Below are positions 3,119 to 32,315 of a DNA stretch of 64,000 nucleotides, piece after piece (the stretch's first letter is position 1; each line of letters starts with the position of its first letter). A program made the translations under genes and the position numbers. The notes below the pieces were generated by a model. It made no database searches. It saw only the letters and a program-made list of their open reading frames with translations, and was not told the DNA's origin. Origin of the DNA: Sporichthya polymorpha DSM 43042 (GTDB taxonomy: Bacteria; Actinomycetota; Actinomycetes; Sporichthyales; Sporichthyaceae). The stretch is taken from the NCBI RefSeq assembly GCF_000384115.1, contig NZ_KB913029.1:2328907-2392906 (forward strand). Reading direction: 5' to 3'.

Positions 3119-3956
3119 TCAGCGCCAGGGCGGCCCGGCGGCGAGGGTCTCCGTCACCACCTGCAGCACGTAGTGCGGGCGGAGGAACACGTCCTCCCAC
3201 GTGAACCGCAGCAGGACGTGGCGCCCGACGACAAGCGCGTTGCCCCGTCGCCGGTCCTCGCGATAGGCCCGCCGGTCGGAGTGGAACTCGAAGCCGTCTC
3301 CTTCCAGTGCGAGCCAGCCGTCGAGAACGATGTCCACGTGACCCACGCCGGGGACCCACGCCTGCGTGGTGACGCGGCCGAGCAGCGTCACCAGCATCCG
3401 CAGTCCCGACTCGAGCGAGGACTCCGAGCGCTCGTCCACCCACGCCACTGCCTGGCGCAGCGCCACCGCGCCGGCGCCGCGGGCTTCGGACGCGGCGGCT
3501 CGCACCGAGCGCAGGTCGACCAGGCGGGCGAGGCAGGCCGACTCGAGGATCACCACCGACTGGCCGAGCTGAAGCGTGCGGCCGCAGTCGAGCACGGTCC
3601 GCAGGGGCGAGGTCAGCGGCCGGTCCTCGTCGAGGTCGGCCGGAGCGAGCCGGCTGCGGTGAACCGTCACCCCGGGAGCCCGGTTGCGCCCGGACGAGAC
3701 TGTCACGTGCAGGCCGGGAGCGGTGCGCCACAGGGCGAACCCGTGCACCGCGGCGGCCGTGGTGTGGGAGACGACGCCGCGCAGTTTCACCGCGGCGACG
3801 AACGCCGGCGACGCGTCGGACAGGGCATACACGCCATGGCCCGGAACGGAGCTCCGGCGGAGCCAGTTCGAGTTGACGCCGCGGCACCTCGAGCTCAACG
3901 AGTCGGCTCCAGCGCGCGGCTCCGCCGCAGAACTTCAGGGCGTCGACAAGATCCAT
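3119..3956 (-). pseudogene. AbiEi-like / DUF559 (restriction-endonuclease fold) gene, frameshifted
   Basis: The family joins an N-terminal winged-helix AbiEi-type antitoxin-like domain to a C-terminal DUF559/Vsr-like nuclease fold. The natural N-terminus starts at ATG 3956 (MDLVDALKFCGGAARWSRLV then LEVPRRQLE), but the rest (GHGVYALSDASPAFVAAVKL through FTWEDVFLRPHYVLQVVTET) is in another frame. The frames meet around 3840-3870, so a one-base shift separates the domains. The C-terminal EGDGFEFHSDRRAYREDRRR region is otherwise intact. A TTG at 3898 could give a shortened product lacking the DNA-binding head. A similar intact gene is at 53151. Sequencing error is not excluded. Confidence 0.7.
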
Positions 3957-26104: not shown

Positions 26105-26878
26105 TCACCGGGTGTGCAAGGCGTGAACCTGCTCGTGCTGCTCGACCGGGCACCAGTGGGCAATCCGGCCCGTGATCGCGGCGGTGGCGACCGCCGCGCC
26201 GCAACTGCGGCAGCTCGCGCGTTTGTAGACCCAGCGCTCGTCGGGGGCGGACGGGTCGCTGACGACCTGGCCGGCGTCACGGCCGAGGGCCATCAGACGG
26301 CGCGTCAGTCCCCAGAGCGCGGTGGCCTGGTCGACGCTGAGGTCCGCGCAGGGAGTGCGCGGGTGCAGGCGCGCGAGGAACAGCAGCTCGGCGCGCCACG
26401 CGTTCCCGACTCCGGCCCAGACGGACTGGTCGAGCAGGGCCGCGCCGACGGGGCCGCGGAAGGACCGCAGGGCGGTGACCGCCGCGGTGGGATCGTCGGG
26501 GCCGAGCGGGTCGGGCCCGAGCTTGGCGAGGATCCGCGCCACCTCGGCGGGGTCGAGCAGATCGCAGGCGGACGGGGCGATCAGGTCCCACGCCGCCGTC
26601 GGGCCGGCGAGGCGCAGGCGGGTGCCGGTCCGCGGCGGCGTCGCGGGGTCGGGGTGGTGCAGGAAGAGCCCGCGCATCCCGAGGTGGACGTGGACGGCGG
26701 GCGCGTCCTCGACGTCGTAGAACAGATGCTTGCCGGCGGCGCGGACGTCGAGCAGGCGCCGGCCGTCGACGACGCCGGCGTCGAACCGGCCCTGCGGCGA
26801 GGTCGCACGGACCTCCGCCCCGCCCAGGTCGGCGCGGATCCGGTCGGCGAAATGGTGGATCAGGTGTCCCTCGGGCAC
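26105..26878 (-). CDS. nei: Fpg/Nei-type DNA glycosylase/AP lyase (endonuclease VIII-like)
   Basis: Bifunctional base-excision repair enzyme of 257 aa. The catalytic N-terminus PEGHLIHHFADRI appears after the removed start residue, so GTG 26878 must be the start. The helix-two-turn-helix has LLDQSVWAGVGNAWRAELLF. The C-terminal zinc finger has Cys-x2-Cys (CRSC), then 16 residues and CPVEQH: the usual fourth Cys of CPxC is Glu here, with a His two residues later as a possible substitute. Divergent from the pyrimidine-dimer glycosylase fusion, and both starts abut one 37-bp inverted repeat. Confidence 0.93.
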   Translation of the reverse strand: MPEGHLIHHFADRIRADLGGAEVRATSPQGRFDAGVVDGRRLLDVRAAGKHLFYDVEDAPAVHVHLGMRGLFLHHPDPATPPRTGTRLRLAGPTAAWDLIAPSACDLLDPAEVARILAKLGPDPLGPDDPTAAVTALRSFRGPVGAALLDQSVWAGVGNAWRAELLFLARLHPRTPCADLSVDQATALWGLTRRLMALGRDAGQVVSDPSAPDERWVYKRASCRSCGAAVATAAITGRIAHWCPVEQHEQVHALHTR

Positions 26879-26879
26879 G

Positions 26880-26916
26880 CTGAGGTTCTGCCCGCCCGAG
26901 CCGGGCAGAACCTCAG
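26880..26916. promoter_or_regulatory. 37-bp inverted repeat filling the divergent gap nei / glycosylase fusion
   Basis: CTGAGGTTCTGCCCG (26880-26894) and its exact complement (26902-26916) flank a 7-nt centre. The arms end one base before each GTG start (26878 and 26918), so both genes have the same upstream sequence, GGGCAGAACCTCAG-N-GTG. Either each transcript is leaderless or the palindrome supplies the ribosome site; a shared operator is likely. Confidence 0.7.
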
Positions 26917-26917
26917 G

Positions 26918-28435
26918 GTGCAGACGTTCCTGCCCTATCCGGACCTGCGGGCGAGCAGTGTGGTGCTCGACGACCGCCGGCTCGGCAAGCAACGCGTCGA
27001 GACGTTCCAGATCCTGCGGGCGTTGACGTTCGAGACGTACGCCTGGCGCAACCACCCCGCCGTGCGGATGTGGCGCGGGTTCGTCCCGGGCCTGGTCCGC
27101 TACGGGCGCGAGAACTGCCGGGAGTGGCAGCGCCGGGGTTACGCCGACACGCTCGCCGACAAGTTCCTGGAGTGGAGCGACGGTGTCGAGCCCGACGACC
27201 CCCCGCTGCCCCCGTGGTTCGGCTGGGAGCCGCTGCACCGCTCGCACCGGTTCGCGCTGCTGCGCAAGGAACCCGAGTGGTACGCCGAGCGCTTCCCCGC
27301 CGAGGCCGCCGCGGACCCCGGCGACGACGCCGGCTACCTCTGGCCGCCCGACGTCTTCCCAGCCTGGCCGGTGCGCGGCGACGGGCTCGCGGTGCCAACG
27401 GCGTTCCGGACGCTGGGCATCGACGACCCCCGGCCGGGCCAGCTCGCCGCGGCCGAGGCGGCCGCCGCCGGGCGTGACGTCCTGCTCGTGATGCGCTCCG
27501 GCACCGGTGGGTCGACGACCGGACTCGCCGCCGGACTCGCCACGAAGGGTCTGACCTGGTGGGTGCACCCGCCGTTCCTCCCGCGGTCACCGGCGGTGCC
27601 GGCGGTCGTCGGGCCGCCGCCGCGCGACGTCCCGCCCGGGGAGCCGGCGCCCCTGACGGCCCGTCCGCCCGGCCCGGCGGACCTCGTCGCGATGCGCGCG
27701 GAGGCCCAACCGCCGGAGTTCCTGTTCACCCCGGCGGACCGCATTGCCGGCGGTCCGTCGGAACACCCGATCGGGCTGGTCGTCGTCGACGGTGCGCACC
27801 GGCTGACCGCCGAGCAGGCGGCGCAGACCGCCGCCGTCCGCCGTCGCCTCGGGGACCCGCCGCTGCTGGTGATCGTCCCGCGGGCCGACCCGGCCGAGCG
27901 GGAGGCGATCGTCGCCGCGTACGGCCTGACCGACCCGCTCCACGCCGGTGGGGGTTGGGATCCCGGCAGTGCGCTGAGCATCCGCCGGGTCGGCAGCGCC
28001 CGCGCCCGGGGCGGTGCGGTCTCCGCCCTGGTCGCCGAGCGGAAGCCCGCACTGGTCGTCTGCCCGACCCGCGAGGCCGCACGGCGCCGCGCCGAGCGGC
28101 TCAGCGCCGACGGGCTTCCCGCCCAGGTGTGGTCCCCGCCGCCGATGCGCCCCTCGCGGGCCGAGGCGGCCCTCGGTGCGTTCCGGAGCCGGCGCCTCGC
28201 CGCGCTGGTGGTCTCCGTCGACGCGTTGCCGCCGCTGCCCCGCGCCCGCCTGGCGCTGCTGATCTCGGAGAACCCGCCGTCGCTGGAGAGTTGGCGCGCG
28301 GAGATCGAGACCGCGCGGGCCGAAGTCTCCGTCGCGGTGCTCGACCCCGACGCCGACCCGGACCTGCTTCGTCTCGCCGACGCGGGCCCGGAATTGCGGG
28401 CCGCCCTGCTCGATCACTTCGGCGAACCCGGGTAG
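26918..28435 (+). CDS. pyrimidine-dimer DNA glycosylase domain fused to a catalytically dead RecQ-like module
   Basis: Product of 505 aa. Residues 1 to about 150 match the pyrimidine-dimer glycosylase/endonuclease V family found in actinobacteria (QTFLPYPDLRASSVVLDDRR, LGKQRVETFQILRAL, NHPAVRMWRGF). From about 165 the protein follows the order of a RecQ helicase: RPGQLAAAEAAAAGRDVLLV, a Walker-A-like RSGTGGSTTG with Gly in place of Lys, VVVDGAHR where DEAH is expected, VVCPTREAARRRAERLSADG in the second lobe, and no arginine finger (SLESWRAEIETA). So the helicase part cannot hydrolyse ATP in the known way and may only bind DNA or a partner. Neighbours are nei and recQ. Confidence 0.8.
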   Translation: MQTFLPYPDLRASSVVLDDRRLGKQRVETFQILRALTFETYAWRNHPAVRMWRGFVPGLVRYGRENCREWQRRGYADTLADKFLEWSDGVEPDDPPLPPWFGWEPLHRSHRFALLRKEPEWYAERFPAEAAADPGDDAGYLWPPDVFPAWPVRGDGLAVPTAFRTLGIDDPRPGQLAAAEAAAAGRDVLLVMRSGTGGSTTGLAAGLATKGLTWWVHPPFLPRSPAVPAVVGPPPRDVPPGEPAPLTARPPGPADLVAMRAEAQPPEFLFTPADRIAGGPSEHPIGLVVVDGAHRLTAEQAAQTAAVRRRLGDPPLLVIVPRADPAEREAIVAAYGLTDPLHAGGGWDPGSALSIRRVGSARARGGAVSALVAERKPALVVCPTREAARRRAERLSADGLPAQVWSPPPMRPSRAEAALGAFRSRRLAALVVSVDALPPLPRARLALLISENPPSLESWRAEIETARAEVSVAVLDPDADPDLLRLADAGPELRAALLDHFGEPG

Positions 28436-30683: not shown

Positions 30684-32315
30684 TCAGCGGCGGGCCAGGA
30701 GGTCGGAGTCGGTGACGACGGCGAGAGAAAGGGTCTTGTAGCCGACGGTGTCGAACAGGACGACCAGGCGCTCGCCGTCCTCGATCCGGAGTACGGAGCC
30801 CCGGCCCCACTCGGGGTGCTCGACGGCGCAGCCGGGCGGATACGGGGCGTCGGGGTCGGCCTCCGCCGCGGCCTCGGCGACGGCCTCGGTGTCGCGGCAG
30901 TTGTCGCACCCGCCGCAGGGGCCGGAGAACGTCTCGCCGAAGTAGGTGAGCAGGAACTCGCGGCGGCAGCCGGGGGTCTCGGCGTAGGCGCGCATCATCT
31001 CGACGCGGGAGCGGACGAGCTCGCCGTGCGCGTGCTCCGCGGCGGCGGCCTGCGCGACGCCGGCGTCGACGTCCGACGTCACGACCCGCACCGAGTCCCC
31101 GTCGACGACCACCACGCCCGCCTCGCTCAACCGGTTCAGCACCGCCGTGAGACGGGTGTCCGACAGCTCGGTCCGGGCGGCGAGGTCCGCGACCGGCAAC
31201 GCACCGTCCGCGGCCACGATCCCCGCGACCTGCTCGAACACCTCGGCGGGGATCTCGCCCGCGGCGAAGAAGCGGCGCAGCCCGAGGTCCTCGGCGCGCC
31301 AGAACAGCACGATCTCCGCGGGATCGCCGTCGCGGCCGGCGCGGCCGATCTCCTGGTAGTACGAGTCGATCGAGTCGGCAACGTCGTAGTGCCAGACGAA
31401 CCGGACGTCCGGCTTGTCGATCCCCATCCCGAACGCGGTCGTCGCGACCATGATCCGGCACTCGCCCGCGGTGAACGCCTCGTGCGCGGCCTCGCGGCGG
31501 CCCTTCGCGAGACCGGCGTGGTAACCCTCGACGCCGCCGAGGCCGGCGTCGCGCAGTGCGTCGACCAGTTCCTCGACGCGCTTGCGGGTCGCGGCGTAGA
31601 CGATCCCGGACCCCGACACCTCGGTCGCCGCCTCCAGCAGTGCCCGCCGCTTCGCTTCCTCCTCGGTGAACCGACGTACCGTCAGATCCAGTTCGGGCCG
31701 GTCGAACCCGCCGACGATCACGGCGGCGTCCTCTAGTCCGAGGGTCTCGACGATCTCCCGCCGCACCGGCGGCGCGGCCGTCGCGGTCAGGGCGAGCACC
31801 GGAGGATGGCCGAGCTCCGCGAGTGCCGCATCGATGCGCCGGTAGTCGGGCCGGAAGTCATGGCCCCACGTGCTGACGCAGTGCGCCTCGTCGACGACGA
31901 ACAACGAAGGCTTCGCGGCCTTCAGTCGTTCCATCGTCTCCGTGCTGGCGAACTGCTCCGGGGCGACGAAGAGGAACTCGAGGTCGCCGTCGGCGAGGTC
32001 CGCCATCGCCTCGCGGCGCTCGGCCGCACTGGCGGCGGAGTTGTGGCCGACCGCCCCCAGACCGGTGTCGGCGAGGGACGCGACCTGGTCCTGCTGCAGG
32101 GCGATCAGCGGCGAGACCACGACCGTCGGGCCGGGGATGAGCGCTCCGGCGACCTGATAGATCGCGGACTTGCCGGCCCCGGTCGGGAGCAGGGCGAGGG
32201 TGTCGCGGCCGGACAGGACGGCGCGCACCGCGCGCAGCTGCGGGTCCCGGAGCTCGAAGCCGAGCAACCGGGCGGCGGTCTTCTGGATCGTCGCCGCCGA
32301 GGGAGTGGATGCCAC
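30684..32315 (-). CDS. recQ: ATP-dependent DNA helicase RecQ
   Basis: 3'-5' DNA helicase of 543 aa in recombination repair. Motifs are complete: LLPTGAGKSAIYQ (I), VVSPLIALQQDQV (Ia), VVDEAHCVSTWGHDFRPDY (II with the RecQ aromatic loop), LALTATAAP (III), ATTAFGMGIDKPDVRFVWHY (V) and SYYQEIGRAGRDG (VI). A zinc-binding RecQ-Ct with CR...CGGCDNC follows, then a winged helix. No HRDC domain: the C-terminus is a short beta-rich segment (EWGRGSVLRIEDGERLVVLF). The GTG start at 32315 lies 2 bp after the patatin gene stop, so the two form an operon. Confidence 0.97.
   Translation of the reverse strand: MASTPSAATIQKTAARLLGFELRDPQLRAVRAVLSGRDTLALLPTGAGKSAIYQVAGALIPGPTVVVSPLIALQQDQVASLADTGLGAVGHNSAASAAERREAMADLADGDLEFLFVAPEQFASTETMERLKAAKPSLFVVDEAHCVSTWGHDFRPDYRRIDAALAELGHPPVLALTATAAPPVRREIVETLGLEDAAVIVGGFDRPELDLTVRRFTEEEAKRRALLEAATEVSGSGIVYAATRKRVEELVDALRDAGLGGVEGYHAGLAKGRREAAHEAFTAGECRIMVATTAFGMGIDKPDVRFVWHYDVADSIDSYYQEIGRAGRDGDPAEIVLFWRAEDLGLRRFFAAGEIPAEVFEQVAGIVAADGALPVADLAARTELSDTRLTAVLNRLSEAGVVVVDGDSVRVVTSDVDAGVAQAAAAEHAHGELVRSRVEMMRAYAETPGCRREFLLTYFGETFSGPCGGCDNCRDTEAVAEAAAEADPDAPYPPGCAVEHPEWGRGSVLRIEDGERLVVLFDTVGYKTLSLAVVTDSDLLARR

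Follow-up and report, generated by a model that had tools for sequence, protein, structure and literature searches.

The locus and its fusion gene

The DNA analysed here, called the window, is a stretch of 64,000 nucleotides from Sporichthya polymorpha DSM 43042. At positions 26918-28435 of its plus strand lies an open reading frame of 505 amino acids with a GTG start. A first, sequence-only reading had proposed that this frame joins a pyrimidine-dimer glycosylase to a catalytically dead RecQ-like module. Domain scores and fold prediction agreed with this layout and placed a glycosylase-family domain at residues 1-143 and a RecQ-derived core at residues 156-505. The features of the fusion gene and of two genes nearby are as follows.

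26105..26878, minus strand: Nei2/Fpg-type glycosylase gene, divergent neighbour (PF06831 50.9 bits, PF01149 34 bits)
26918..27346, plus strand: MSMEG_6728 / Pyr_excise glycosylase-family domain, residues 1-143 (NF038085 166 bits, PF03013 75 bits, bridged alignment)
27347..27388, plus strand: junction, residues 144-157 (alignments with the FPxWPxR motif)
27389..27937, plus strand: RecQ-derived lobe 1 (1A-like), residues 158-340 (AlphaFold model, RecQ-only structural matches, dN/dS 0.19)
27500..27514, plus strand: dead Walker A GTGGS, residues 195-199, with Gly at the Lys position (motif alignment)
27650..27745, plus strand: conserved element, residues 245-276, xAR-P-x3-D-x2-AM-x2-E ... F (alignment, column frequencies)
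27788..27799, plus strand: dead Walker B DGAH, residues 291-294 (motif alignment)
27938..28435, plus strand: RecQ-derived lobe 2 (1B-like), residues 341-505 and stop (alignment, RecQ_Zn_bind tail in orthologs, structural matches)
30684..32315, minus strand: intact RecQ-family helicase, for comparison only (TIGR00614 355 bits, cut-off 220)

The FPxWPxR motif at the junction was kept in nearly all fused forms, whereas the stand-alone members of the family lack it and end in ..Y.WP. Among the junction columns, P148 was found in 100% of the rows and W150 and P151 in 90%.

The gene at 26105-26878 had been read as a divergent Nei-type glycosylase. This was confirmed by the Pfam matches and by synteny, since the gene is divergent from the fusion both in the window genome and in the sister species G001; the Nei2 model itself gave 103 bits, under its cut-off of 400. 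The start codons of the two genes are separated by 39 bases in the window. This gap is filled by a perfect 15-bp inverted repeat, CTGAGGTTCTGCCCG, with a 7-base spacer (positions 26880-26916, RNA fold z -6.3). The repeat is kept in G001 (L155, about 3911-3946), where one of its arms carries a single inserted base. It may be an operator common to the Nei2-type and fusion genes.

The RecQ gene at 30684-32315 had been pointed out as a real RecQ in the same cluster. It is genuine and was a useful internal yardstick; across the three genomes of the genus, no other RecQ scores above the family cut-off. It is, however, neither a conserved neighbour nor a visible parent of the module: the locus of G001 is otherwise collinear but lacks this gene, which is possibly an insertion. 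We conclude that it stands outside the fusion system. When neighbours were compared for a conserved genetic partner, no convincing recurring gene was seen, and the clustering was noisy from shadow ORFs. In a Streptomyces-like sequence (L030), a stand-alone MSMEG_6728 gene is convergent with a close intact RecQ gene, and both parents of the fusion thus lie side by side on opposite strands.

The glycosylase-family domain

Residues 1-143 scored 166 bits with the MSMEG_6728_fam model (NF038085, cut-off 100) and 75 bits with PF03013 Pyr_excise (cut-off 23). T4 DenV reached 53 bits on the same PF03013 model. E28 was invariant in 20 diverse members, and an alignment via a bridging sequence put it in the column of the T4 endonuclease V catalytic Glu (Glu23 in gene numbering). 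Residue 2 was an invariant Gln. Met1 is normally retained when residue 2 is Gln; it would therefore probably be kept, and catalysis would have to rely on its amine. In T4 endonuclease V, the acting amine is that of the Thr at the processed N-terminus (PMC3285167). The claim of an intact pyrimidine-dimer glycosylase accordingly stood for the family membership and the catalytic Glu, but it holds at the family level only, with Gln2 in place of a small residue.

Instead of a dimer glycosylase, the domain might be a different enzyme of this fold family that acts on nucleic acids, with the module serving a different task. Several results are in line with this. A direct profile alignment of the domain to T4 DenV gave no match, and solved structures near the domain by sequence were lacking at E values up to 10 except for a chance capsid match. 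The Gln2 with its probably retained Met points the same way, and the literature searched gave no tested activity of any MSMEG_6728 family protein. Against this, PF03013 is well over its cut-off for both the window domain and T4 DenV, and the catalytic Glu is aligned and invariant. We therefore regard another enzyme as rather unlikely; it could hold together with our preferred account of the module, given below. The domain was searched for structural matches within the full chain, where the match lists were filled by helicases.

The MSMEG_6728 gene of M. smegmatis has been reported to be expressed less when sigF is mutated (PMC4694148) and to change under zinc depletion (PMC7174638). Relatives of the glycosylase domain are also encoded in 34 phage records (MW202510, MH047631, OP068343, OQ999401 and others), mostly annotated as hypothetical. 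In Arthrobacter, Gordonia and other actinobacteria (L131, L132, L139, L148, L150, L151, L159, L160, L162), MSMEG_6728 proteins carry another C-terminal tail, ALLQDPxxxF. This tail, seen in Arthrobacter, Gordonia and L132, was considered as a RecQ remnant and rejected as a different domain.

Loss of the motor motifs

The motifs of the module were compared in an alignment with the window's own intact RecQ (30684-32315) and the long-form relatives. In place of the Walker A GxGKS, the module has GTGGS (195-199), in which the Lys is missing, and in place of the Walker B DEAH it has DGAH (291-294). Motif III (TAT) and the aromatic-rich loop are missing, motif V is unrecognisable and motif VI, which holds the arginine finger, is deleted when compared with the window RecQ. 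Motif Ia is likewise lost or deleted. The loss of all catalytic RecQ motifs, which had been claimed for the window protein, extends to its relatives: GK[ST] was found in 0 of 44 non-redundant fusion sequences and a DEAH-type box also in 0 of 44. Judged by these motifs, the module is without an ATPase motor in every member.

RecQ fold and ancestry of the module

The sequence similarity of the window protein to RecQ is weak. The DEAD model gave 17.7 bits, under its cut-off, and TIGR00614 gave 13.4 bits for the fusion protein against a cut-off of 219.8, so that the curated RecQ family score was not reached. RecQ-specific matches were found in two collinear stretches, residues 157-219 and 295-415 (4tmu RecQ, E 3.4e-5), and PRK11057 matched the module with E 3.7e-5.

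The full fusion protein was predicted by AlphaFold2 with a pLDDT of 91.7 and a pTM of 0.88. The input alignment consisted of fused and stand-alone relatives only, with RecQ sequences absent. The pTM of the model suggests that the domains of the fusion stand in a defined arrangement. When the predicted model was searched with Foldseek, the top matches were RecQ helicases. With VIA-align over residues 156-505, RecQ-family helicases made up 50 of the 50 matches listed, with Z values from 23.5 to 17.8. The second half is thus RecQ-like in its predicted fold and in its RecQ-only structural matches, as had been proposed. For a short relative (L090, 316 amino acids, pLDDT 89.1), the first structural match was RecQ lobe 1 at a Z of 8.9, which is near a possibly generic level, and Foldseek alone gave no match below E 0.001 for the short form.

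A further line of evidence came from the C-terminus. Orthologs run on into PCGRCDxC, the zinc-binding tail of RecQ, whereas the window protein lacks the zinc-binding subdomain and ends with GEPG exactly where this tail starts. A remnant of the tail is present in the orthologs L058/L081, L078 and L079. L078 exceeds the Pfam RecQ_Zn_bind cut-off (28 against 25 bits) and has 59% identity to the window protein across residues 1-193. At the sequence level, the zinc tails of the orthologs show the RecQ ancestry of the module independently of the fold.

In a tree, the pseudo-modules formed one clade outside every sampled actinobacterial RecQ. The RecQ of the window was considered as the parent of the module and found unsupported; the clade of the pseudo-modules stands apart, and long branches blur the exact parent.

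Recurrence, single origin and reduction

The fusion recurs in other genera. It was found in 44 non-redundant sequences, which belong to nine or more families of actinobacteria. A profile match was found in 102 of the 394 sampled genomes of the class and the fusion in 17 of them. Named records with the fusion include Frankiales, Nocardiopsis, Knoellia, Motilibacter, Marinactinospora, Actinokineospora, Goodfellowiella, Rhodococcus and others. The third species examined in the genus lacks the fusion, as do two further genomes from its order. The sister species G001 has the same continuous ORF with 91% identity. One record titled Glycomyces fuscus (L088) has a sequence nested within Nocardiopsis and is either a mislabelled genome or a recent transfer.

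We also considered that the fusion is an artefact of assembly or frameshift, or that the likeness to RecQ arose by chance. Apart from the weak sequence similarity of the window protein itself (DEAD under its cut-off), the evidence speaks against both. The ORF runs uninterrupted in G001 and in over 40 further sequences, which rules out a frameshift or assembly artefact, and purifying selection acts on either side of the junction. A chance likeness is opposed by the RecQ-only structural matches and by the RecQ zinc tail of the orthologs. We regard the probability of either as practically negligible.

Stand-alone pseudo-RecQ genes were not seen: a search with the module alone gave RecQs or fusions wherever a match was examined. 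In a tree of the glycosylase domain with 103 rows, all pseudo-RecQ forms fell on one side of a branch with a support of 99/94, and 99% of the bootstrap trees agreed. We conclude from this topology that the fusion arose once. Spread of the fusion by plasmids was considered and found unsupported; six records of the plasmid collection had matches, all limited to the glycosylase domain.

The fused forms differ in length. Frankiales-type MAGs and the genus of the window have long forms of 504-564 amino acids, some with the zinc tail. Most other fusions have 302-369 amino acids and retain just part of lobe 1, a module of about 160 amino acids, and the Saccharothrix fusions have 230-251 amino acids with about 45 recognisable module residues. 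The zinc tail can have come only together with a complete RecQ core, and truncation is therefore the most likely origin of the short forms.

Selection on the module

Between the window protein and G001, dN/dS was 0.09 for the glycosylase domain and 0.175 for the whole module (95% bootstrap 0.12-0.25); lobe 1 taken separately gave 0.19 and lobe 2 gave 0.16. Nine other pairs were compared: in eight of them the module had values between 0.19 and 0.41, and in the ninth a noisy 0.73. The constraint on the module is about 1.5 to 5 times weaker than that on the glycosylase. By these values, the module is maintained by purifying selection, more loosely than the glycosylase.

The mean frequency of the commonest residue was 0.72 in the glycosylase domain and 0.67 at the junction. 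Within the module it was 0.37 in the P-loop region, against 0.67 for residues 202-217 and 0.58 for the element 245-276. The P-loop region is among the least conserved stretches. The element 245-276, with the residues A248, R249, P251, D255, A258, M259, E262 and F270, corresponds to RecQ motif Ib and the stretch ahead of it, and practically every row has it. It is the sole part of the module left in the Saccharothrix stubs. With the P-loop poorly kept and this element kept, nucleotide binding is not what selection acts on.

The module could also be a neutral relic that an accidental fusion left at the C-terminus, where it is tolerated and gradually disappears. Its truncation is repeated across lineages, and its dN/dS is higher than that of the glycosylase. 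However, dN/dS is far below 1 for each lobe and in almost every pair, specific module residues are kept at 85-100% across families, stubs included, and a compact fold is predicted with confidence. We consider a neutral relic improbable. The weaker constraint and the repeated cutback are nevertheless compatible also with the slow loss of a dispensable tail.

A proposed role for the dead RecQ core

It had been suggested that the pseudo-helicase scans or positions DNA for the glycosylase, as a DNA-binding platform. Inactive helicase domains can keep DNA binding, as in AddB/RecC (PMC4824097), where the dead helicase of AddB reads Chi, and in the PriA of D. radiodurans (PMC4504706), and the window protein retains the overall two-lobed fold. 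However, none of the elements with which RecQ tracks DNA is left: motifs Ia, V and VI and the aromatic-rich loop. The module is not basic: that of the window protein has a net charge of 0, those of the relatives range from -15 to +7, and nearly all are neutral to acidic. Most members have part of lobe 1 only and hence no cleft between two lobes for the DNA. Scanning is thus weakly supported and the platform as a whole unlikely; DNA could possibly be positioned through another surface of the module.

Our preferred explanation, which we hold with moderate confidence, is that a dead RecQ core was reused as a non-motor accessory domain of a glycosylase-family enzyme after one fusion in the actinobacteria. 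In a single ancestral event, an MSMEG_6728-type protein of the Pyr_excise family was joined to a RecQ helicase core, and the fused helicase would then have lost ATP binding and translocation. The module may pack against the glycosylase as a rigid, ATP-independent unit, either structural or for docking, and would in this be comparable to XPF or AddB. There it may keep a partner protein near the lesion or the incision product, or contact the DNA at these sites without motor action. The AR-P-D-AM-E element of lobe 1 would be its most likely working surface. The glycosylase domain would cleave pyrimidine dimers or a related lesion via its N-terminal amine and E28. Repeated trimming has brought the module down to a single lobe or even less. 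The lost motifs and the purifying selection are both consistent with a retained accessory role of the pseudohelicase that needs no ATP hydrolysis.

More tentatively, RecQ might here have been turned into a non-motor docking domain, with intermediates running from a two-lobed core with a zinc tail down to a 45-residue element that couples incision to a partner. If true, this would be the first glycosylase-pseudohelicase architecture of the docking type. The natural reduction series reveals which part of a helicase outlasts the loss of its motor, and the many small proteins in it are suited to asking what a pseudohelicase does. The fusion also gives a starting point for asking how UV-type lesions may be dealt with in actinobacteria.

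Comparison with known systems

Dead helicase domains on repair enzymes are already known from XPF and AddB; here such a domain is joined to a glycosylase-family domain. In the literature searched, neither a glycosylase-RecQ fusion nor a pseudo-RecQ on a glycosylase-family enzyme was found. The architecture of glycosylase-family domain and pseudo-RecQ is real and recurs, and it is apparently undescribed.

The stand-alone MSMEG_6728 proteins of Streptomyces, Curtobacterium, Amycolatopsis and others resemble the fusion in the N-terminal 143 residues, in the start and in the invariant residues, but have about 142-184 amino acids and no RecQ-derived module. T4 endonuclease V (DenV) shares the PF03013 family and the position of the catalytic Glu with the fusion. 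It has a Thr at its processed N-terminus and no helicase module, whereas the fusion has Gln2. RecQ helicases have the fold of both RecA-like lobes in common with the fusion and, in the orthologs, the zinc-binding tail. In contrast to them, the fusion lacks the Walker A Lys, the DEAH, motifs III, V and VI and the aromatic-rich loop, and is joined to a glycosylase-family domain.

Among degenerate helicases, XPF/ERCC4 similarly has a helicase-like SF2 domain without ATP-binding residues on the chain of a repair enzyme (PMC6320978), but it belongs to another helicase subfamily, is a nuclease and not a glycosylase, and is eukaryotic or archaeal. In AddB/RecC, an inactivated helicase domain is reused inside a bacterial DNA-repair enzyme (PMC4824097), as in the fusion; these proteins, however, belong to Superfamily 1, are multi-subunit and have a known DNA ligand, Chi. 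The PriA of Deinococcus radiodurans is likewise a bacterial pseudohelicase with no ATPase or unwinding activity, but it is unfused, keeps the DNA binding of PriA and has a reported interaction with DnaB (PMC4504706).
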